Made by a program: the position numbers and the translations under genes
Shown here: positions 12,381 to 27,468 of the stretch, in pieces
How the letters are laid out: each line of letters opens with the position of its first letter
Numbering within the stretch: the first letter of the stretch is position 1
Notes under the pieces: model-generated
Seen by the model: only the letters and a program-made list of their open reading frames with translations
Told to the model about the DNA's origin: nothing
Database searches by the model: none
Source of the DNA: Gammaproteobacteria bacterium
GTDB lineage: Bacteria > Pseudomonadota > Gammaproteobacteria > Chromatiales > Chromatiaceae
Length of the DNA stretch: 46,132 nt
NCBI GenBank assembly: GCA_009908845.1
Contig: JAAAOQ010000073.1
Location: 1 to 46,132 of the forward strand
Reading direction: 5' to 3'

Positions 12381-13925
12381 TTATCGCGCCGAACTGGCAT
12401 CCGCAACTAAACCACGCGGTAGCACGCTTGCTTCAAGATAGGAGATCAAAGCCCAGATCTTTTCAGGCTTGAGATTCCCATAGCTCGGCATTAGCCATTC
12501 ACCGTCTGCACGCGGGATACCGGCCGCGATCCGATAATACAGCTGTCTCTCGGTCGCGCCGCCTTTGAGCGGATCGCGGGTCAGGTCGTGCGGTTTGACC
12601 ACACGGCCGGCCGCATCGGTCCGAAGAGACGTCAATACACCATCACCCGCTCCCCGTTCGCCGTGGCACACAACGCAGAGGTTCGCATAGAGCGTCTCCC
12701 CCTCCGCCACCATCTCACCTGTTGGCTTCGGACGCGGGGGTACCACGACCTTTTCACCGGGCTCGGGACGACCCTCCCACAATTGGGTTACGGTTGCGAC
12801 GAGGGAGCTCAGTTGCTGATCGGAAAGCACCCCGAAGCCGGGCATGCCAGTCCCCGGCAGACCATGCACGATGACTCGCCGCAGATCGTCATCGGATGCG
12901 ACCCCATTCGTCGTCGAGATGTAGCGGAAATGACCCGTCGTGAGATCTCGTGGCAAAGCGGTAAACGTCGGCGACCTCGCTCCAGGACCGTCGCCCTGTC
13001 CCTCTAGGCCATGGCACCTTGCGCACTGGCTCACGTAGAGCGGATAACCCTCGAGCGTGCTCCGCGGCTTGCTTGCGCCCGCATCCGGATCGGCATTGCT
13101 GGCTGCCTGAACCTCCTCGACCAGTCCTGTCTGGCTCGGCCCCGGGACGATAAAGGCGATCAACAGCAATACAGCGATCACTCCGCCGGCCAGATAGGTC
13201 ATGTACGACTTATCCGTCACGCCCTTGAATTCCCAGCAACCAAAGATCCAGCCGTTCTGGAATTTCTTGGATGCGGTCCGCAAGACCTGATAAGGCCGAG
13301 CCAGGTAGTTGACTGGCAAGGTCCAGGCATGGATGAGTTTGGTAAACGGAAAGTACGCCGCAAATGCAAAGGCTAGGAAGATATGGATCTTGCTCAACCA
13401 GGGCGCGGAAGCCATGAGCTCTGGCTGGGGCGAAAAGCGCCATAGACTCGCGAACCAGGGCGCAGCGGTAAAGGCAACTCCCCAAATGCGATCAACCAAG
13501 GCCTGATAGATCGCCACCCCAAGAATCGCAATGAGGAACAGGTGCACGATGTAATCGTCCGGCTGGCTCATTGCGCGCATCTCAGGCACCGTCGTTCGCC
13601 GGACAAGCGCGATCACCGAGCCGGCGATCGCGGCGAGCCCGCCGAGCGTCGCCATCCAGAAGAAGGCGCCGACCCAGCTTCCCCATCCCAAGAGGCCCCC
13701 GATCAACCCTGCCAGGTGACCAAAGAACGCCAGAAAGATCCCCCAATGCAATAGATGGGCGGCCAGACCGAGGATATCCCTGCCGACGAAGATACCGCTG
13801 GCTCGTGTGCTCATGCCGAACGGGCGGTACACCATTCGCACGAAGGGCACGACGAAGAACAGCGTCAACGCAACATAAGGGAAGACACCCCAAATCAGGT
13901 AGCTTGACGTGAGCGATTCGTTCAT
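12381..13925 (-). CDS. narI: Respiratory nitrate reductase gamma subunit fused to a C-terminal diheme cytochrome c
   Basis: N-terminal NarI-like TM region (FPYVALTLFFVVPFVRMVYRPFGMSTRASGIF; HIFLAFAFAAYFPFTKLIHAW), then CARCH and CVVCH heme motifs; overlaps narJ. Confidence 0.87.
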   Translation of the reverse strand: MNESLTSSYLIWGVFPYVALTLFFVVPFVRMVYRPFGMSTRASGIFVGRDILGLAAHLLHWGIFLAFFGHLAGLIGGLLGWGSWVGAFFWMATLGGLAAIAGSVIALVRRTTVPEMRAMSQPDDYIVHLFLIAILGVAIYQALVDRIWGVAFTAAPWFASLWRFSPQPELMASAPWLSKIHIFLAFAFAAYFPFTKLIHAWTLPVNYLARPYQVLRTASKKFQNGWIFGCWEFKGVTDKSYMTYLAGGVIAVLLLIAFIVPGPSQTGLVEEVQAASNADPDAGASKPRSTLEGYPLYVSQCARCHGLEGQGDGPGARSPTFTALPRDLTTGHFRYISTTNGVASDDDLRRVIVHGLPGTGMPGFGVLSDQQLSSLVATVTQLWEGRPEPGEKVVVPPRPKPTGEMVAEGETLYANLCVVCHGERGAGDGVLTSLRTDAAGRVVKPHDLTRDPLKGGATERQLYYRIAAGIPRADGEWLMPSYGNLKPEKIWALISYLEASVLPRGLVADASSAR

Positions 13926-14644
13926 GGTCTTTCCCCTGCCATCATCGACGGCGACTGTGCAGGCTGCGCGCCCGCGCTCTGGCCCGGGCCCTGGATCGTT
14001 ACAGGAATGGTTTCAAGGATCTCGGGCGGTAACCAGATCGGGTCCTCGGCCATGCGCTCGAGGTCCTCGTCGATCGCGATCTCTAATGCCTCCACCAGGA
14101 GCTCATAGACGCTCTCATACTTGCGCATCGATGCTCGCAGTGCCGGCAGCCCGGGGGCCAAGTAATGCTCCACAAACCGACGTCTTAGTCCAATACCATC
14201 CCTCTCGGTGCGTTTCGCGCTCGCGGCCAGGAAGTCAATCATCACCGGCAGAAAATCTGCCAGCTCGCGCGCATCGACCCCGAGTCCGAAATGCTCGTAG
14301 ATCGCGCCCAGCTCGATCATGTACTGATTACGGTCACAGGCGCCGGCGCCCCGACACGAGTTCGGCTCCTCGTATAGATGTGCGCCGAGATACAATGGAC
14401 AGGGCGGTGTCAGCTCCAATGTCTGCGTGTACTCGTCGATGTTATGGGCGGCAGGATTCGCCTTGAATCGCTCGAGCAATTCGCGTACAGCCGAGTTGGG
14501 CAACCGCTCCAGCGCCCCCTCAACCCACAGCGGGTCCCGTATCTCGGGGTTGAGGAGGAGCTCCGCAATCAACTCGTAGATCAGCCCGAGATCCCAACTC
14601 GCCGACCCTACAGCTTGATCTGGTTGCAGTGCAGACATCGTCAT
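13922..14644 (-). CDS. narJ: Nitrate reductase molybdenum cofactor assembly chaperone
   Basis: Position between narH and narI; LGAHLYEEPNSCRGAGACDRNQYMIELGAIYEHFGLGVDARELADFLPVMIDFLA. Confidence 0.85.
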   Translation of the reverse strand: MTMSALQPDQAVGSASWDLGLIYELIAELLLNPEIRDPLWVEGALERLPNSAVRELLERFKANPAAHNIDEYTQTLELTPPCPLYLGAHLYEEPNSCRGAGACDRNQYMIELGAIYEHFGLGVDARELADFLPVMIDFLAASAKRTERDGIGLRRRFVEHYLAPGLPALRASMRKYESVYELLVEALEIAIDEDLERMAEDPIWLPPEILETIPVTIQGPGQSAGAQPAQSPSMMAGERP

Positions 14645-14646
14645 CG

Positions 14647-16197
14647 TTAACTCCCGACACCCATCTTGTTGCCGTGGAACTCGGTCCTGCGGTTGGGACC
14701 CGCACCCGGATTCAATAGATCGTAGCCAGTAAAGCCGCGCTCGAGATAAGGGGCGTTCGCCGTATCCTCGGTGCGCGCGGTGGCGATGACAAACCGCTCG
14801 TGGAAGTGCGCAAGGGCCAAAAGCCGATGCATGTGCCGGGCCTGCTTGATGGTCAAGCCGACGGCCTTGAGGACAGAATCATCGGTCCGCCCTTCGACCC
14901 GCTCCAAGCGGCGGAACTCGCGCAGCGCTAACTGTCGCAACAGCGCCTTCTCGACCTCACTGGTGTTGCCTGCAGCGAGCAGTCGAGCCAGGTATTCGAT
15001 GGGAATACGGAACTCCTTGAGATCGGGAAGCACCGTGCCGCCATCAACCATATCCAGCGTGCCACGATCATTCGGTTTCGCGGTTGCGACCGGGCTTTCC
15101 GGTGGGATATAGAATAGACTCGGCAGCGTCCGAAATTCCGGATGCAGTGGCAGTGCGATCTCCCACTCTTTAACCATTCGATAGACTGGCGAACGGCGGC
15201 ACGCCTCCAGCCAATTGTCCGAGATCCCTTGGCGCTTCGCCTCAGCGATCACCTCTGGATCGAACGGGTCGAGAATGATCTCCCGGTGGCGCGCAACCAA
15301 CTGCTTCTCGTCCTTGGTGTTGGCCACCTCTGCAACCCGATCCAGGTCGTACAGCAGAGGACCAAGGTAACGGATACGACCGACGCAAGCCTGGAAGCAC
15401 ATCGGCGGCTGGCCGGTCTCTAAGCGCGGGAAACAGAGGATGCATTTCTCGGACTTACCGGTCCGCCAGTTGTAATAGGTCTTCTTGTACGGACAACCTG
15501 ATACGCAGTACCGCCAGCCACGGCAGCGATCCTGATCGATCAGTACGACCCCGTCCTCTTCGCGTTTGTAGTTAGCGCCCGATGGACAAGAGCCAACGCA
15601 GCCTGGATTCAGGCAGTGGTTGCAGATCCGCGGCAGGTACATCATGAAAGACTGCTCAAACTTCAACAGCGCTTGCCGCGCCTCCGGCGTCATGTCGCTG
15701 AAGTTGTAGTCGAGCCTCCCGGTCCCCTCTTCGTGCGTACCTGCAGCATTGTCTTCCCAGTTCACGCCATAGGTGAGTTCAATATCCTCCTCACCAGAGA
15801 TCTGCGATTTCGGCCGTGCGACGGGCTGTGAGTACTTCGTCGGCTGCTCGGAGTGCAGATCCTCATAGGTGAAGGTAAAAGGGCCTTTGCCGTAGTACGA
15901 ATCCATCTGCGGCAGGACCGGGTTATAGAAGAGGCTGATCATCTCCCAGAATTTTGACGCCTGATTGAGTCGAGGTGCATCAGACTCTGCGTCCTGCTTC
16001 CAGCCTCCGCGGTACTTGTCCTGATTCTCCCATTCCCTTGGATAGCCGACACCGGGCTTGGTCTCGACATTGTTCCAGAACATGTACTCTGCGCCTTCGC
16101 GGTTCGTCCACACGTTCTTGCACGCAATCGTGCAGGTTTGACAACCCAGACATTTGTCCAGGTTGAAGACGATTCCCATCTGTTTCTTAATACGCAT
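14647..16197 (-). CDS. narH: Respiratory nitrate reductase beta subunit
   Basis: MGIVFNLDKCLGCQTCTIACKNVWTNREGAEYMFWNNVETKPG; multiple ferredoxin-type Cys clusters including DQDRCRGWRYCVSGCPYKK. Confidence 0.96.
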   Translation of the reverse strand: MRIKKQMGIVFNLDKCLGCQTCTIACKNVWTNREGAEYMFWNNVETKPGVGYPREWENQDKYRGGWKQDAESDAPRLNQASKFWEMISLFYNPVLPQMDSYYGKGPFTFTYEDLHSEQPTKYSQPVARPKSQISGEEDIELTYGVNWEDNAAGTHEEGTGRLDYNFSDMTPEARQALLKFEQSFMMYLPRICNHCLNPGCVGSCPSGANYKREEDGVVLIDQDRCRGWRYCVSGCPYKKTYYNWRTGKSEKCILCFPRLETGQPPMCFQACVGRIRYLGPLLYDLDRVAEVANTKDEKQLVARHREIILDPFDPEVIAEAKRQGISDNWLEACRRSPVYRMVKEWEIALPLHPEFRTLPSLFYIPPESPVATAKPNDRGTLDMVDGGTVLPDLKEFRIPIEYLARLLAAGNTSEVEKALLRQLALREFRRLERVEGRTDDSVLKAVGLTIKQARHMHRLLALAHFHERFVIATARTEDTANAPYLERGFTGYDLLNPGAGPNRRTEFHGNKMGVGS

Positions 16198-16200
16198 GGC

Positions 16201-19200
16201 TTATGCCCCAACTCTCAGCTGTGACTCTTGATAGATGACCTTCCGACCGCGCGTCTCCATCGGCTTCTTGCGTATCAGGACGACGCAGTCGCGTTCGGAC
16301 GGACTGGTGCCCTGATAATTCAGCCAATAGGTCCAGTTGGCGTAACCTCCCACCATCGTCGCTGGGTTCATCATGATCCGCGTCGTGGCGTTATTGTTAC
16401 CGCCGCGAAGGTCGCTCGCGCCCCGCTCTCGGGCGAGCGACGAAAACGGAACGTTCACATGCCGCTCGGTCTGGTGATAGACGATCGACATATCCCTCGG
16501 CACCGTGTGGCTCACCACTGCACGAGCGACCTGGATGCCGTTCTCGTTAAAGATTTCGACCCAATCGTTATCCTTCACGTTGATGTCGCGGGCATCGTCA
16601 TCATTGATCCAGACCGTTGGTCCACCGCGAAACATGTTCATCATCTGCCAGGAGTCATGGAACATGCTGTGGATGCCCCATTTCTGGTGTGGCGTGATGA
16701 AGCGGAACAGCTTGGCACCCTTCAACTCGATATCCTTTGGCGCGACATCGCCGATCGACACCATATCGACCGGCGGCTTATAGACTGGGAAGTCTTCACC
16801 CAAATCGCGGAACATCCGGTGGTCGTAATAGATCTCCTGCCGCCCGGTCAGCGTGTGGAAGGGCTTGAGCGCCTCGATGTTCAATGTCCATGGCGAATAA
16901 GTGCGGCCCTTGGTCTCGATGGCCGACCAGTGCGGTGATGTCAGTGCGCGTCGGGGCTGCGAAATCAGATCTGGGTAGTGGTAGGCAGTCTCGCGTTCAT
17001 GCTCGACGATATTCGCGAGCGGCACCCCGCAGCGCTCCTCGAGCTTCTTGAACACCTGATACGAGAGCTCGCCATCACTCTCCGGAGAGATACGCAGAAT
17101 CACCTCACAGACCTTCGCTGCCGTTTCCATGTTGGGTCGGTCATCCTTCTCGCCGACGAGATAGCTCTCCTTCATCTGCTCATAGGCCTCGGCGAGATCC
17201 CCCTTGATGCCCTTTGCGCCGTAACCATTGGGCTTCGTGACCTCGGGGCCGAGCGTCGTGTACATGTCGTAGACCTTGGTGTAGTCGCGGGTCACGACGT
17301 TGACGTTAGGAAAGGTCTTGCCTGGAATCGGTTCGCTCTCACCGACCGCCCAATCGCGCAGCTCACCCATCGGCTGCGCCATCTCGTCGGGGGTATCGGT
17401 GTTGAGTGCCGTCATCACCAGATCTTCTACCGGGTCAGGTAGGTGAACCTTGGCTAGTTGGCTAATCTTCTCGGCAACTAGACCGAATGCCTCCCAGTCA
17501 TGCTTGGTCTCATAGGCAGGATCGTGCGCAGGCGTAAACGGATGCAGGAATGAATGCAGATCCGTGCAGGTCAGATCGAACTTCTCGTACCAGTGCGCCG
17601 TCGGCAGGACGATGTCCGAGTAGTTCGCAGACGAGTCCATCCGCAGGTTCACGTTGTAGATCAGGTCGAGCTTGCCGAGCGGTGCATCCTCCGTCCAGTT
17701 GATCTCATTCACCAGTTCCTTGGCTCTCGTCTCGCCACCGAGTACATTGTTATGGGTACCGAGCATATGTTTCAGATTCAGCTCATGCCCACGCATGCTT
17801 GTGCCGATCAGATTGCCACGATAGATCCACAATACCTTCGGATGGTTCTTCGGGGCATCGACGTTCGGCAGTGCGAATTTCAGCTTTCCATCTTTGAACT
17901 GCTTCGCGACCCAGTTGCGCACATCCTCTATCTCCTTGCAACCGGCCTTCCGCGCCTCTTGAATCACCTCAAACGGATTGCGTTCATCGAACTGCGGGAA
18001 GAACGGCAGCCAACCATTACGCACAGCCACCGCATTCATGTCGGCGGCATGGTTCGCTTTACTCGGCATCTCTTTCGCGCGTGGCGCCCATAGCGGGTCG
18101 AGGCTCATACCATCGTAGCGCCACTGATCCGTGTGGAAATAAAAATAGGATGTCGAATTCTGTTGGCGCCCGACATTGCCCCAGTCCACTGCATTGCCAA
18201 TGGTGCCAATCGCCGCCACGTTACGGATCTTCTCAGTACCGACATAGTGCGCGAAACCCCCGCCATTGCGACCCTGACAACCCGTTAGAATGCCCATGAC
18301 GGCTTCTGAACGATAGGTGAGCGAGCCACCGTGATACCAATGCAGAATCCCTGAGCCAGTGATAAAGAGGCACTTGCCCTCGGTTTTTTCGGCGGTATCC
18401 GCCCATTCTCTCGCGACACGGATGGCGAGGTTACGATCGACCCCGGTCTCCTGCTCCTGCCAGGCCGGGGTGTAGGCTTGCGAGGCGTCATCGTAATCCT
18501 TTGGATAACCAGGCCCGGACAGGCCGCGGTTGACACCAAAATGGGACAACAGCAAGTCATAGGCCGTGGCGACGCGAGCCTCTCGGCCATCGGCCAGCTT
18601 CAAGACACGACTTGGTACGCCACGCAGACTGCGTTGCGCCTTTTCGCCGCGGATTGCCGTTGTACCGAATTCAACGTTGAAGGTGTTGGTAAAGTCGGCG
18701 TACTCGACGATGACCTCCTCGTATTCGCCGTCCATTAGCGTTAGCAATGGCTCGAACGGCTGCGAGGTTACGGCATCCTCGTTTTTGAGGTTCCACCGGC
18801 CGGTCTTTTGCTCTTCCCAGCGGAATCCAAGAGACCCACCGGGCAGCCGGAGCGCTCCGGACTTGTCGAAGCACGGCATCTTCCATTCGCCAAGCTCTTC
18901 GTCCTTGTACGCGCTCAAATCGCTTGCCCTCAAGAAGCGACCGCTCGAGTAGTGTTCACCTTCTTCGTCGAGAATGACCAGGAAGGGAAGATTCGTGAAT
19001 TGACCGACGTAATCCTGGAAGTATTGCGCCCGCCGATTGACGTGGAACTCCTGTAGAATGACATGGATGCACGAGAGGATGAATGCCGTGTCAGTGCCTG
19101 GGCGAACCGGGAGCCAAAGGTCGGCAAACTTCGTGACGTCCGAGTAATCGGGCGAGAGATTGACCAGCTTTCCGCCGTTGTATTTGTGCTCAGAGGCAAA

Positions 19201-19992
19201 GTGGGCGTCGGCTGTGCGGGTCATAGGCAGATTTGAGCCCATGACGATCCAGTAGGCGCTCTGATACCAGTCGGCCGACTCATGCACGTCGGTCTGGTCG
19301 CCCCAGATCATCGGCATGATGTGGGGTAGATCGTGGTACCACTCGTAGAAGCTCAGCATCGTTCCGCCGAGCAGATTGGAGAGGCGATGGCCTGACAGGA
19401 AACTGACCATGCTCATCGCCGGGATTGGCGAAAAGGACGCGAGATGGTCCGCGCCGTACTCCTTGATGGTATAGACCTTGGACGCAGCAATGATCTCAGT
19501 CGCTTCGTCCCAGCTCGTGCGGCGCCACCCGGCCTTGCCGCGTGCGTTGCGATAGGCTCGCGAACGCTCGGGGTCTTCAACGATCGCAGCCCAGGCGGCA
19601 ACCGGGTCCTTGCCGGCGTCACGCTCGGTGCGCCAGTAATCGAGCAGCACTCCGCGGACATAGGGATACTTCGGCCGCACCGGACTATAGGGGTACCAGG
19701 AGGACGAGATACCCCGTTGGCAACCGCGAGGCTCGTAGTTGGGTGTCTCATCATTGATCTGCGGCCAGTCCGTCTTTTGCAGCTCCCAAGTGATCATTCC
19801 GTTCTTGACGAAGACCTCCCATGAACAGGAGCCAGAACAGTTGACGCTATGGCTGGTCCGGACGGATTTATCGTATTGCCAGCGACGACGATAAAAATCT
19901 TCCCATTGCCGGGGCTCATCGAGCTCGCGAAACCAGCGGGTCCCGCCGTTGCCCTCACCCTTGCCGTTGCCTTTACCGTTGCTGTTGCTCAT
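16201..19992 (-). CDS. narG: Respiratory nitrate reductase alpha subunit
   Basis: 1263 aa; RTSHSVNCSGSCSWEVFVKNGMITWE; long molybdopterin-binding protein next to narH. Confidence 0.96.
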   Translation of the reverse strand: MSNSNGKGNGKGEGNGGTRWFRELDEPRQWEDFYRRRWQYDKSVRTSHSVNCSGSCSWEVFVKNGMITWELQKTDWPQINDETPNYEPRGCQRGISSSWYPYSPVRPKYPYVRGVLLDYWRTERDAGKDPVAAWAAIVEDPERSRAYRNARGKAGWRRTSWDEATEIIAASKVYTIKEYGADHLASFSPIPAMSMVSFLSGHRLSNLLGGTMLSFYEWYHDLPHIMPMIWGDQTDVHESADWYQSAYWIVMGSNLPMTRTADAHFASEHKYNGGKLVNLSPDYSDVTKFADLWLPVRPGTDTAFILSCIHVILQEFHVNRRAQYFQDYVGQFTNLPFLVILDEEGEHYSSGRFLRASDLSAYKDEELGEWKMPCFDKSGALRLPGGSLGFRWEEQKTGRWNLKNEDAVTSQPFEPLLTLMDGEYEEVIVEYADFTNTFNVEFGTTAIRGEKAQRSLRGVPSRVLKLADGREARVATAYDLLLSHFGVNRGLSGPGYPKDYDDASQAYTPAWQEQETGVDRNLAIRVAREWADTAEKTEGKCLFITGSGILHWYHGGSLTYRSEAVMGILTGCQGRNGGGFAHYVGTEKIRNVAAIGTIGNAVDWGNVGRQQNSTSYFYFHTDQWRYDGMSLDPLWAPRAKEMPSKANHAADMNAVAVRNGWLPFFPQFDERNPFEVIQEARKAGCKEIEDVRNWVAKQFKDGKLKFALPNVDAPKNHPKVLWIYRGNLIGTSMRGHELNLKHMLGTHNNVLGGETRAKELVNEINWTEDAPLGKLDLIYNVNLRMDSSANYSDIVLPTAHWYEKFDLTCTDLHSFLHPFTPAHDPAYETKHDWEAFGLVAEKISQLAKVHLPDPVEDLVMTALNTDTPDEMAQPMGELRDWAVGESEPIPGKTFPNVNVVTRDYTKVYDMYTTLGPEVTKPNGYGAKGIKGDLAEAYEQMKESYLVGEKDDRPNMETAAKVCEVILRISPESDGELSYQVFKKLEERCGVPLANIVEHERETAYHYPDLISQPRRALTSPHWSAIETKGRTYSPWTLNIEALKPFHTLTGRQEIYYDHRMFRDLGEDFPVYKPPVDMVSIGDVAPKDIELKGAKLFRFITPHQKWGIHSMFHDSWQMMNMFRGGPTVWINDDDARDINVKDNDWVEIFNENGIQVARAVVSHTVPRDMSIVYHQTERHVNVPFSSLARERGASDLRGGNNNATTRIMMNPATMVGGYANWTYWLNYQGTSPSERDCVVLIRKKPMETRGRKVIYQESQLRVGA

Positions 19993-20855
19993 CAGTCTGC
20001 TGCCTCTTGGGTTGCCGTATCGTCCGTTGTGTCGCTCCGGCCACGATAAGCGTGAGCGAATGCCTCAACGAACGGACGGAAGTCTCGGACGGTGCCATAG
20101 ATCGCGACGACCGCGTCTCGATCTCTATCGAAGACCAGGTTGACCGCCTCGGAACGACCAATGGGATGTGGGACGGCGTTGTTGTCGTGGTCGACCCAGT
20201 CTTCTTTCATCGCTTGCATCGACACATAGAGGAGGTTCTCCGTGCGATGGGCTTGCCACCAGACGCGGTAGTCCCAGTCGCCGAGCCTGATCTCCTGCTG
20301 AAAGGTCTGCGCGTCTGGGTCATGTGGGTCAATGTCCCATTGCAGGACCGGCATCGCGATCGCGTAGCCAAACTTTTCCCGGGGTCCTGACAACGGCTCG
20401 GGCCCGCCGGGCCCATAGCCTGCAGCCGAGGCGATATCCGGGCGACCGAGTGCAATGGCGAGGAGGTCGGCCTCGGGCAGCTCTCCTTCTTCGAGGAACT
20501 CTGCCTGCAGCGGTGTCATTGGGCGATTGGGTATCGCGCTCGAGCTCGCGGCTGCATCGCGCAGTTCGCTTTCAAGCTCTTTGGCGCTGCGAAGCGGGAC
20601 ATCATGAACGAAGGGAGCGATACGTCGTATTTTGATGTCGGAGTAGTTTGCGCGGTGCAGGACATCACGTATCTCGCGCTCCATTGCCGCGACCTTATGC
20701 TCGTCACGCGAGTCTGGCTTGAAGTCGATCTCGACCATTTTGCCGAGCGCGATGATGTCGCCGACGAATCCGGATGCGACGATATCTCGCGTAAAGCCCG
20801 GATACGACACGTCGCGCAATAGCTCGCGTACCTGTTGAGCATCCGCATTCTGCAT
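19992..20855 (-). CDS. DUF59/MIP18-like protein, first gene of the nar operon
   Basis: VRELLRDVSYPGFTRDIVASGFVGDIIALGKMVEIDFKPDSRDEHKVAAMEREIRDVLHR resembles the DUF59/ApbC N-terminal fold; stop codon overlaps the narG start. Confidence 0.65.
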   Translation of the reverse strand: MQNADAQQVRELLRDVSYPGFTRDIVASGFVGDIIALGKMVEIDFKPDSRDEHKVAAMEREIRDVLHRANYSDIKIRRIAPFVHDVPLRSAKELESELRDAAASSSAIPNRPMTPLQAEFLEEGELPEADLLAIALGRPDIASAAGYGPGGPEPLSGPREKFGYAIAMPVLQWDIDPHDPDAQTFQQEIRLGDWDYRVWWQAHRTENLLYVSMQAMKEDWVDHDNNAVPHPIGRSEAVNLVFDRDRDAVVAIYGTVRDFRPFVEAFAHAYRGRSDTTDDTATQEAAD

Positions 20856-21493
20856 AATCTGCGCCCCCCAATCGTTGAGTGTTCGGACGACGCGCGTCGG
20901 CGGTTTTGAAACCGGGGTTTACCTGGCCTCGGTCGCGATCATCGTCCTTTGTGCGAGGGGCAAAAGATGTGCCAACGGGCTCGACGGTGCCCGCTAGCGG
21001 GCGCCTTAGGCCACCTCCACCGAATGCTCCGTGGTAGCTAGACTCAGGGGGACGGCGTGCGTCTGTTGGCGAATATCAAGGCGAACGAGGGGGCTAGCGC
21101 TCGGCGCCGGCGCCGCCGAAGCGCGCGTTGATTGTGCGCGGAGAACGGATTGGCCACGCCGCCGTGAGGCTCGATCGACAATGGCACCGGCCGCCGGTTG
21201 CGACAGTTTGTCCGAGCGGGCGCGCTAGGGTGGGCTAAGCTGTCGCAGTGACTGGGAAGCGGGCGCGTGGGTACTGCGCCTGATTGGAACCACTTGCGAG
21301 CTACCGGCGGGCTGCGCGAATAACAGCCCGCTCGTGCCTGTGCCCAGGACCGCTTGACGTCGCTCGCCCTTTGCCCTCAACTCTCCCCTTCGCGATGCTG
21401 TTGCATTGCCGGCTAGTCGATACGTGCGGCGAGCGCACTGAGCGACAACGACCAAAAAAACCCAACGACAAAGCGTTGCTAGAGGAGATCGAG

Positions 21494-21919
21494 ATGACAG
21501 CGAAGATTGGTGACAGGGTGAAGGTGCACTATACCGGCACCCTGGTCGATGGGACCGAGTTCGACAGGTCGCGCGAGCGCGAACCGCTGGAGTTCACCCT
21601 GGGCGACGAAACGATGCTGCCCGATTTCGAGGCTGCGGTGATCGGTATGGTCGAGGGAGAGCGAAAGACCATTACAATCCCCTGCGAAGGAGCCTATGGC
21701 GAGCAGGACGCCAGTCTTAACCTGGACGTCCCGCGCGACGCATTACCAACGGATGTCGAGTTGTCAGTCGGGACCGTGCTGCAAGCGACCGGGCCGGACG
21801 GGCAGTCGGCGAGCTTCAGGGTGGTCAGCATTGAGGAAGACCAGGTCGCGATGGACGGCAACCACCCGCTCGCCGGTCTCGACCTGACATTTCAGTTGGA
21901 ACTGGTCGAAATCGCCTGA
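21494..21919 (+). CDS. FKBP-type peptidyl-prolyl isomerase, SlyD-like
   Basis: IGDRVKVHYTGTLVDGTEFDRSREREPLEFTLGDETMLPDFEAAVIGMVEGERKTITIP ... HPLAGLDLTFQLELVEI. Confidence 0.88.
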   Translation: MTAKIGDRVKVHYTGTLVDGTEFDRSREREPLEFTLGDETMLPDFEAAVIGMVEGERKTITIPCEGAYGEQDASLNLDVPRDALPTDVELSVGTVLQATGPDGQSASFRVVSIEEDQVAMDGNHPLAGLDLTFQLELVEIA

Positions 21920-22924: not shown

Positions 22925-23566
22925 ATGATCGCAGTGAAGGTTTCGATGAAGGCGACTAATGAGCCATTGAAGCGTACACCGGTGGTGCTGCAGCTCGATG
23001 CCGACGGTAGTCAGACGCCACCGGTGTTGACCGATCGCGCCGGCGTCGCCCGCTTCGACCTGCCGCCGACCAGCGGCCGCATCCTGGTCTCCGGGCTGCA
23101 GCGCTACGATGGACGCCTCGATGGCGAGATCCCGATCGAGCTCTGGTCGATCACCCAATCGGAGCTGGACTCCAAAGGTGGCCCCGGCGAGCTGCCCAGC
23201 GGCCGCAACGCCTATCCGGGTATGAGCACCCACTGGCTGCCGGTTGGCGATCAGCGCGTCGAGGTCGACAGCGAGGGCTATCTGGTCGACCCGCAGGACT
23301 GGTCCGAGGACTTCGCACGCGCGCTCGCGGGCGAGGAAGGCCTGACGCTCACCGCGGAGCACTGGGAGCTGATTCGGTGGCTGCGCACGCACTACGCCCG
23401 CCACGGCGCCCAGGCCTCGGTGCGCGACATGATCGCGCACTTCCGGCGCGTCTGGGATCGAGAGCGCGGCAGCAACCGCTATCTGCACCAACTGTTCCCG
23501 CGCGGCGGCCCGCAGAAACAGGGCAATCGCCTCGCCGGACTGCTACGCACCAAGGGGGAGCACTGA
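22925..23566 (+). CDS. DsrC/TusE-family protein lacking the conserved cysteines, fused to an about 100-aa N-terminal domain
   Basis: C-terminal VEVDSEGYLVDPQDWSEDFARALAGEEGLTLTAEHWELIRWLRTHYARHG...GSNRYLHQLFPRGGPQKQGNRLAGLLRTKGEH follows the DsrC/TusE pattern; N-terminal part is beta-rich. RBS GAGGAGA upstream. Confidence 0.82.
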   Translation: MIAVKVSMKATNEPLKRTPVVLQLDADGSQTPPVLTDRAGVARFDLPPTSGRILVSGLQRYDGRLDGEIPIELWSITQSELDSKGGPGELPSGRNAYPGMSTHWLPVGDQRVEVDSEGYLVDPQDWSEDFARALAGEEGLTLTAEHWELIRWLRTHYARHGAQASVRDMIAHFRRVWDRERGSNRYLHQLFPRGGPQKQGNRLAGLLRTKGEH

Positions 23567-26292: not shown

Positions 26293-27468
26293 TTATCCGT
26301 AACGCCCATCCACTCTCGCACTTAAAAGCGGCCGCGCAAATATTGCCAGCATCCCTATAAAAGCACTTATCCAAAGAAATTGTGAAAGTTGTATCAGCAG
26401 GAAATAATACTCTGGTGCAAGTATCGGCAGCAGTACGCGCAGTATCGCGCCGGCCGCGAGTGTCATGAATATTAACGCGAGCCCCTTAGGGGGTTCGAAC
26501 ACATTACGCCCCGTATGTCCCAGTGAAACGCGAGCCATCATACCAATGGTGATGAGCCCGATGCCACCGTAGGCCATCGCGTGCAACCCGAGTGCAGGCG
26601 GGATATGGAGGATTTCTGCCGCACCACGTAGTACAAACCCGATCGAAATAAATGCCACGGCTAGGTGCAGTACCCAAACCAGCGGTCGCCTGAATATTTC
26701 CGAGGTATACCACCCGTACAAGCGTAACGCATTTGCGATAAACAGGACCAAGCCGCTGGTGAGCAATAGCGGTTGCCAAGACAACACGTCGGCGGCGGCA
26801 AAGGTCATGAGACCGACCAAGGACACACTCGGCACATACCGGTAGTCCTGTACCTGGGTCTTCTCGGCGATGGCATTGCGTGTGAATGAGGGCACCACGC
26901 GCTGCGCCATCATCAGGATGAGGCCGATGACGGTGTACATCGCGATGAGCAGTGACGGGCGAGCATAAGAAGGGCTTACCCAGCCGATGGCGGAGGCCAG
27001 GAAGAAGGTATCCAAGCCTAGAAATAAGCACAACTTGCCAATAATCCCCCATTGTGCGTGATTGCTTGCCTGAATCAGTGGCTTCACCAGAACCCACAAT
27101 AATAATAGGTAAAAAAGGACACTGCTGACCAGCATGGCCGGCACGCCGGCGGCGCTGGGGTAGAGGGCGATCAGTCGTGATAACAGCCAGAAGGTGAATA
27201 GCGCCAGCAACATGTTGCCTTGCGCTGTTTTACCTCCGGTCCAGTTTTGTACTGCGGTCAACAGAAAGCCCGAAATGACAGCCATGGCGTAGCCGAAAAC
27301 CATCTCGCGACCGTGCCAAAGCGCAGGGGCGAGCGTATCGAGATCGAGTCGGGTTAACTGCATTAGCTGAGCGGTCCAGAGCGTCATCGCGACGACCGAG
27401 TAGAGCATCGCGCCAAGGAAGAAAGGGCGAAATCCGGTCTGCAAGAAAGTGAGAGGACGTGCGTGCAT
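26293..27468 (-). CDS. nnrS: NnrS family heme/copper-type membrane protein
   Basis: LTFLQTGFRPFFLGAMLYSVVAMTLWTAQL...WHGREMVFGYAMAVISGFLLTAVQNWTG; LHAMAYGGIGLITIGMMARVSLGHTGR. Confidence 0.92.
   Translation of the reverse strand: MHARPLTFLQTGFRPFFLGAMLYSVVAMTLWTAQLMQLTRLDLDTLAPALWHGREMVFGYAMAVISGFLLTAVQNWTGGKTAQGNMLLALFTFWLLSRLIALYPSAAGVPAMLVSSVLFYLLLLWVLVKPLIQASNHAQWGIIGKLCLFLGLDTFFLASAIGWVSPSYARPSLLIAMYTVIGLILMMAQRVVPSFTRNAIAEKTQVQDYRYVPSVSLVGLMTFAAADVLSWQPLLLTSGLVLFIANALRLYGWYTSEIFRRPLVWVLHLAVAFISIGFVLRGAAEILHIPPALGLHAMAYGGIGLITIGMMARVSLGHTGRNVFEPPKGLALIFMTLAAGAILRVLLPILAPEYYFLLIQLSQFLWISAFIGMLAIFARPLLSARVDGRYG

Follow-up and report, generated by a model that had tools for sequence, protein, structure and literature searches.

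DsrC is a sulfur carrier that works through its cysteines. What, then, could be the role of a DsrC-like protein that has none? The question is raised by a gene located in the window, as we call the whole 46,132-nucleotide stretch of Chromatiaceae DNA analyzed here, whose 213–amino acid (aa) product does not contain a single cysteine. The gene and the parts of its product are as follows:

22925..23566, + strand: cysteine-free DsrC paralog with an N-terminal beta domain, 213 aa (open reading frame with an ATG start)
22925..23149, + strand: N-terminal beta domain, putatively transthyretin-like/CnaB-like, residues 1–75 (AlphaFold2 and Foldseek)
23150..23227, + strand: linker predicted with low confidence, residues 76–101 (AlphaFold2 model)
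23228..23503, + strand: DsrC body, residues 102–193 (profile and fold match)
23504..23563, + strand: replacement C-terminal arm GGPQKQGNRLAGLLRTKGEH, residues 194–213 (alignment to canonical DsrC)

Domain structure and C-terminal arm of the protein

Residues 108 to 208 match the Pfam DsrC profile (PF04358) with an E value of 1.2e-31 (109.8 bits versus a curated cut-off of 24.9), and residues 107 to 207 match TIGR03342 with an E value of 2.2e-25 (89.1 bits versus a curated cut-off of 53.5); the cut-off of the TusE equivalog NF008562 was missed (79 versus 191 bits). Structure prediction with AlphaFold2, proposed as a check in the initial annotation, yielded a model with a mean pLDDT of 87 that consists of a beta domain, a linker, and a DsrC fold. 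By sequence as well as by predicted structure, A. vinosum DsrC (1yx3, 35% identity) is the nearest solved relative; Foldseek matched the predicted DsrC fold to it with a TMt of 0.84 and an rmsd of 2.2. The DsrC core recognized by eye is thus supported by two profiles above their cut-offs and by the predicted fold.

The core had also been described as preceded by about 100 beta-rich residues. Six beta strands are predicted with high confidence at residues 2 to 73, and residues ~78 to 100 form a linker of low AlphaFold2 confidence; confidence is also low at the tip of the C-terminal arm. An NAYPGM motif common to fusion members is located at the end of the linker. The beta domain resembles transthyretin-like and CnaB domains, but its Foldseek matches to 3e8v, 5aq0, and 8bdw had borderline E values (0.02 to 0.05, probability 0.97 to 1.00), and the match to Pfam CarboxypepD_reg (PF13620; E value of 0.024, 15.4 bits) was under the cut-off of 32.3.

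The tail of the canonical DsrC encoded in the same genome is FPYGPAKQACRYAGLPKPTGCV (KQAC...PTGCV); the 213-aa paralog has FPRGGPQKQGNRLAGLLRTKGEH and ends in LLRTKGEH. The first redox-cysteine position is occupied by Asn201 (23525–23527), which changes KQAC to KQGN, and the second by Glu212 (23558–23560), with Glu212-His213 encoded at 23558–23563. Since 10 residues separate the two cysteine positions in the canonical protein and in the paralog alike, both cysteines were substituted in register. The initial annotation had stated that both functional cysteines are absent, with KQGN and RTKGEH in their place, and was right in this. As judged from its sequence, the protein cannot support either the two-cysteine sulfur carriage of DsrC or the one-cysteine carriage of TusE.

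The cysteine-free DsrC paralog belongs to a discrete and conserved family

Orthologs of the same architecture are present in many genomes, and the observation therefore exceeds what is expected by chance. When a profile was run against the class sample, members scored 181 to 210 bits and everything else scored 115 bits or less. In a tree of 91 DsrC-family sequences, obtained by a quick search with support calculated without bootstrap and with many inner forks unresolved, the family is one clade apart from canonical DsrC (SH-aLRT of 99). This clade includes one divergent tandem paralog, located at 2199–2669 of locus L065, where it adjoins a fusion gene and carries a different arm (EQGHRLAGLPRGK...). 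Overall, the cysteine-free DsrC proteins of this type constitute a discrete and conserved family.

Such a protein is found in many sulfur oxidizers; among the named carriers are Halochromatium, Thiocapsa, Thiocystis, Thiorhodococcus, and Allochromatium humboldtianum, as well as Hydrogenophaga and metagenome-assembled Ideonella and Rhizobacter. An even sample of the phylum (399 genomes) contained three matches, all from Gammaproteobacteria. The fusion-linker pattern matched 58 of the 80 named loci, a number to be read knowing that the pattern misclassifies a few truncated or unusual members. Many members are stand-alone proteins that have the same arm without the beta domain, and the beta domain was accordingly rejected as an essential part. 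In two Lamprocystis loci (L117 and L129), the arm is intact and the frame before the DsrC body is not the usual beta domain; their N-terminal part may have been altered by a frameshift or a rearrangement.

The replacement arm is the most conserved part of the family. KQGN and GE are invariant across the 109 members that were fetched, His is the last residue in 108 of them, and none has a cysteine within the last 22 residues. Over these members, the mean modal frequency is 0.97 for positions of the arm, compared to 0.72 for those of the body. Because the 80 named loci were retrieved with arm peptides, arm conservation is biased there, and it was measured again on 20 members from a profile search of the even class sample. 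In these sequences, retrieved without the arm as bait, GGPQKQGNR and GEH are invariant.

Genomic neighborhood, promoter boxes, and co-occurrence with dsrA and narG

The following genes are found around the paralog in the window:

12381..20855, − strand: NarGHJI-like operon with a PF01883 protein, neighbor of 22925–23566 (+)
16201–19992, − strand: NarG of the NarGHJI-like operon
14647–16197, − strand: NarH of the same operon
13922–14644, − strand: NarJ of the same operon
12381–13925, − strand: NarI fused to cytochrome c, same operon
19992–20855, − strand: PF01883 protein, with the NarGHJI-like operon
21284..21919, + strand: FKBP-type peptidyl-prolyl isomerase
26293..27468, − strand: NnrS, a nitric-oxide-related membrane protein

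The NarG-like protein of the window is 92% identical to its counterpart in Thiocapsa sp. KS1, the sole protein of this kind found there. This strain oxidizes nitrite phototrophically, and its enzyme clusters with the Nitrobacter-type nitrite oxidoreductase (PMC8387239). By this similarity, the operon at 12381–20855 (−) may encode a nitrite oxidoreductase instead of a nitrate reductase. This possibility, together with the location of the operon on the other strand, counts against the reading that we prefer below.

Neighbors were counted across loci, using a list that was picked after viewing examples, so that the counts are descriptive and do not constitute a test. Among the 21 loci of the class sample, the paralog gene directly follows narGHJI in seven and a NasA/Fdh-like molybdenum enzyme with DmsBC in six; five more are near NnrS, HPP, or LysR genes, and three have none of the tested neighbors. 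HPP proteins can carry nitrite. In the 80 named loci, LysR genes were found within 3 kb of the gene in 34, HPP in 14, and NnrS in 11. The dsrN gene is directly upstream in 14 of the 80, mostly from Burkholderiales, where the order is dsrEFHC-M-K-L-J-O-P-N followed by the cysteine-free DsrC gene; Hydrogenophaga has an IscA-like gene and then cysG downstream of it. The nar arrangement recurs in genome G736 and the dsr arrangement in G712. The linkage to nitrate, nitrite, and NO genes is systematic.

Five loci (L189, L192, L197, L199, and L202) have an operon for a NirD-like Rieske protein, a NasA/Fdh-like molybdenum enzyme, and a DmsB-DmsC fusion, with the cysteine-free DsrC at its end. Among the six Nas-like/DmsBC loci of the class sample, the NirD-like Rieske gene is upstream in those that were read in detail. 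The molybdenum enzyme of the five loci reached none of its curated cut-offs.

FNR/DNR-type boxes, defined as TTGATN4ATCAA with no more than one mismatch within 300 bp upstream, precede 11 of 53 fusion genes. The expectation was calculated first from plain base shuffles and then from the loci themselves, in which the box is present in 1.4% of tiles and in 1.8% of other upstream regions (binomial P of 3e-9, uncorrected for relatedness). Near-identical sites in Thiocapsa account for three of the 11 boxes, leaving about nine distinct cases, and the gene at 22925–23566 (+) itself has no such box under the same definition. Sites of FNR/DNR type, as predicted by this match, are thus present in part of the fusion family.

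Co-occurrence was assessed in 369 genomes sampled evenly across the class, of which 21 are carriers, 118 have dsrA, and 63 have narG. Twenty of the 21 carriers have dsrA, compared to a background of 118/369 (32%; Fisher P of 6e-10), and within dsrA genomes carriers are associated with narG (Fisher P of 0.006); neither value is corrected for relatedness. Carriers make up 10/29 of genomes with both genes, 10/89 of those with dsrA only, 0/34 of those with narG only, and 1/217 of those with neither. The single carrier without dsrA is a genome of 81% completeness, and dsrA is present in its congener. The dsrA gene was also present in 10/10 further family members, 2/2 carriers from the phylum sample, and 4/4 named carriers checked. 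The cysteine-free DsrC is thus nearly confined to dsrAB genomes. The absence of narG from 10 of the 20 dsrA-containing carriers counts against the preferred reading. As a separate observation, genomes G010, G014, G026, G314, G436, and G451 each contain two dsrA genes that are full-length or nearly so.

The initial annotation had listed nitrate respiration components among the partners to be checked; a link of this kind is borne out by the nar and Nas-like neighbors, by the co-occurrence with narG, and by the FNR/DNR boxes.

Possible roles and relation to known DsrC proteins

Our preferred reading, which we put forward tentatively and at somewhat less than even chances, is that of a non-carrier DsrC paralog that acts at a docking site of DsrC, probably on DsrAB, and is deployed during nitrogen-oxide respiration; we infer both the partner and the mechanism. 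In favor of this reading are the DsrC fold, the discreteness of the family, the conservation of its cysteine-free arm, the nitrogen-oxide and dsr neighbors, the FNR/DNR boxes, and, indirectly, the near-restriction to dsrA genomes; besides the points named above, the missing box in the window and the three sampled loci without any tested neighbor speak against it. The sulfur-carrying arm has been swapped, with length and register kept, for a conserved non-redox arm with Asn, Glu, and a C-terminal His. By means of its DsrC surface, which is retained, together with this arm, the protein would occupy a site that is normally DsrC's, most probably on DsrAB, and such occupancy could throttle or shield the Dsr pathway during nitrate respiration or upon exposure to nitrite or NO. 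In some lineages, the beta domain may serve as an additional module for docking. Nitrite and NO are bound by siroheme. Throttling or shielding of siroheme chemistry would make sense for this reason, and also because nearly all characterized sulfite reductases reduce nitrite as well (PMC9295563). Since the DsrEFH interaction depends on the DsrC cysteine (PMC3397948), a sulfur relay between the paralog and DsrEFH is unlikely. A more specific version, which we regard as improbable, has the arm reversibly plugging the active site of DsrAB: the siroheme iron would be covered or ligated by the C-terminal His, and the basic sulfite pocket would hold Glu212 and the terminal carboxylate, so that siroheme is protected against nitrite and NO while nitrogen oxides are respired. 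If so, a guard protein would have evolved out of the enzyme's own sulfur carrier.

Other explanations fit parts of these data. The protein could be an RspA-type gene regulator that uses its DsrC fold to bind either DNA or a transcription factor and so adjusts the expression of dsr, nar, or nnrS, with the arm as a contact surface and no plug. A regulatory role has reportedly been suggested for cysteine-independent DsrC relatives, and the 34 named loci with nearby LysR genes are in line with it; yet neither Pfam nor AlphaFold2 predicts a DNA-binding domain beyond the DsrC fold, and the extreme conservation of a C-terminal arm as long as that of DsrC agrees at least equally well with an arm that inserts into a channel of a protein. 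We consider a regulator of this type rather unlikely, though a serious candidate. The general expectation of a non-catalytic regulatory or docking version agrees with the conserved cysteine-free arm; its beta domain turned out to be inessential, given the stand-alone members.

An accessory or assembly factor for cytoplasmic molybdenum nitrate reductases (Nar and Nas-like) without a direct tie to Dsr would explain why 13 of the 21 sampled genes close a nitrate-reductase-type operon, but carriers are absent from all 34 narG genomes that lack dsrA, half of the dsrA carriers (10/20) do without narG, and the Burkholderiales gene lies inside a dsr operon; with this distribution, such a factor is unlikely. 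That we are dealing with a decaying DsrC copy is barely conceivable: the missing cysteines taken alone would point to decay, but the arm is better conserved than the body, with KQGN and GE invariant. Fusion homologs with retained cysteines, named beforehand as the sign of local decay, did not appear (arm cysteine in 0/109 members), and local decay is ruled out by orthologs that share the intact arm.

A non-carrier paralog docking on the Dsr machinery would be a concrete candidate for the molecule through which sulfur oxidation by Dsr communicates with the metabolism of nitrate, nitrite, and NO wherever an organism couples the two. It also opens to testing the question of why sulfur oxidizers have gained additional DsrC copies. 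The automatic label "TusE/DsrC sulfur relay protein" can be misleading when dsrC copies are taken to indicate sulfur transfer.

Among known proteins, DsrC (A. vinosum 1yx3; DsrAB-DsrC complexes 2v4j, 3or1, and 2xsj) shares with the paralog its fold, arm length, D-EGYL and W-LR core motifs, and the KQ-x-x-R-x-AG arm frame; the paralog differs by Asn and Glu in place of the cysteines, a C-terminal His, and, in many members, the beta domain. TusE (NF008562) belongs to the same superfamily, and its penultimate cysteine is replaced by Glu212 in the paralog. RspA, according to Venceslau et al. 2014, is said to comprise DsrC relatives that act independently of the cysteines and for which a regulatory role was suggested. 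PMC7787665 refers to Venceslau et al. 2014 when it mentions that DsrC may act in transcription regulation. RspA as proposed and the present family are alike in being DsrC-family proteins that do not use cysteines, and the family may fall under the RspA name.

Another cysteine-free DsrC-like paralog, ending in KGGY, is found in many of the same genomes beside dsrA and ~7 kb from canonical dsrC (L003 and similar loci). It differs from our family by a separate tree branch, another tail, and about 37% identity, and is itself possibly RspA. The genome of the window has further DsrC paralogs without the cysteine pair (L005, L006, and L007), two of which have tails ending in EDEGFG(T/V)AR. The viral DsrC_1 of SUP05 phages is reported to lack both the second cysteine and an insertion (PMC4164917); it resembles the paralog in missing part of the cysteine pair and differs in its viral context. 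No description of the arm signature, the fusion, or the nitrogen-oxide linkage was found in the open-access papers that were searched. Cysteine-independent DsrC relatives had been proposed previously, and these three features would be what is added here.
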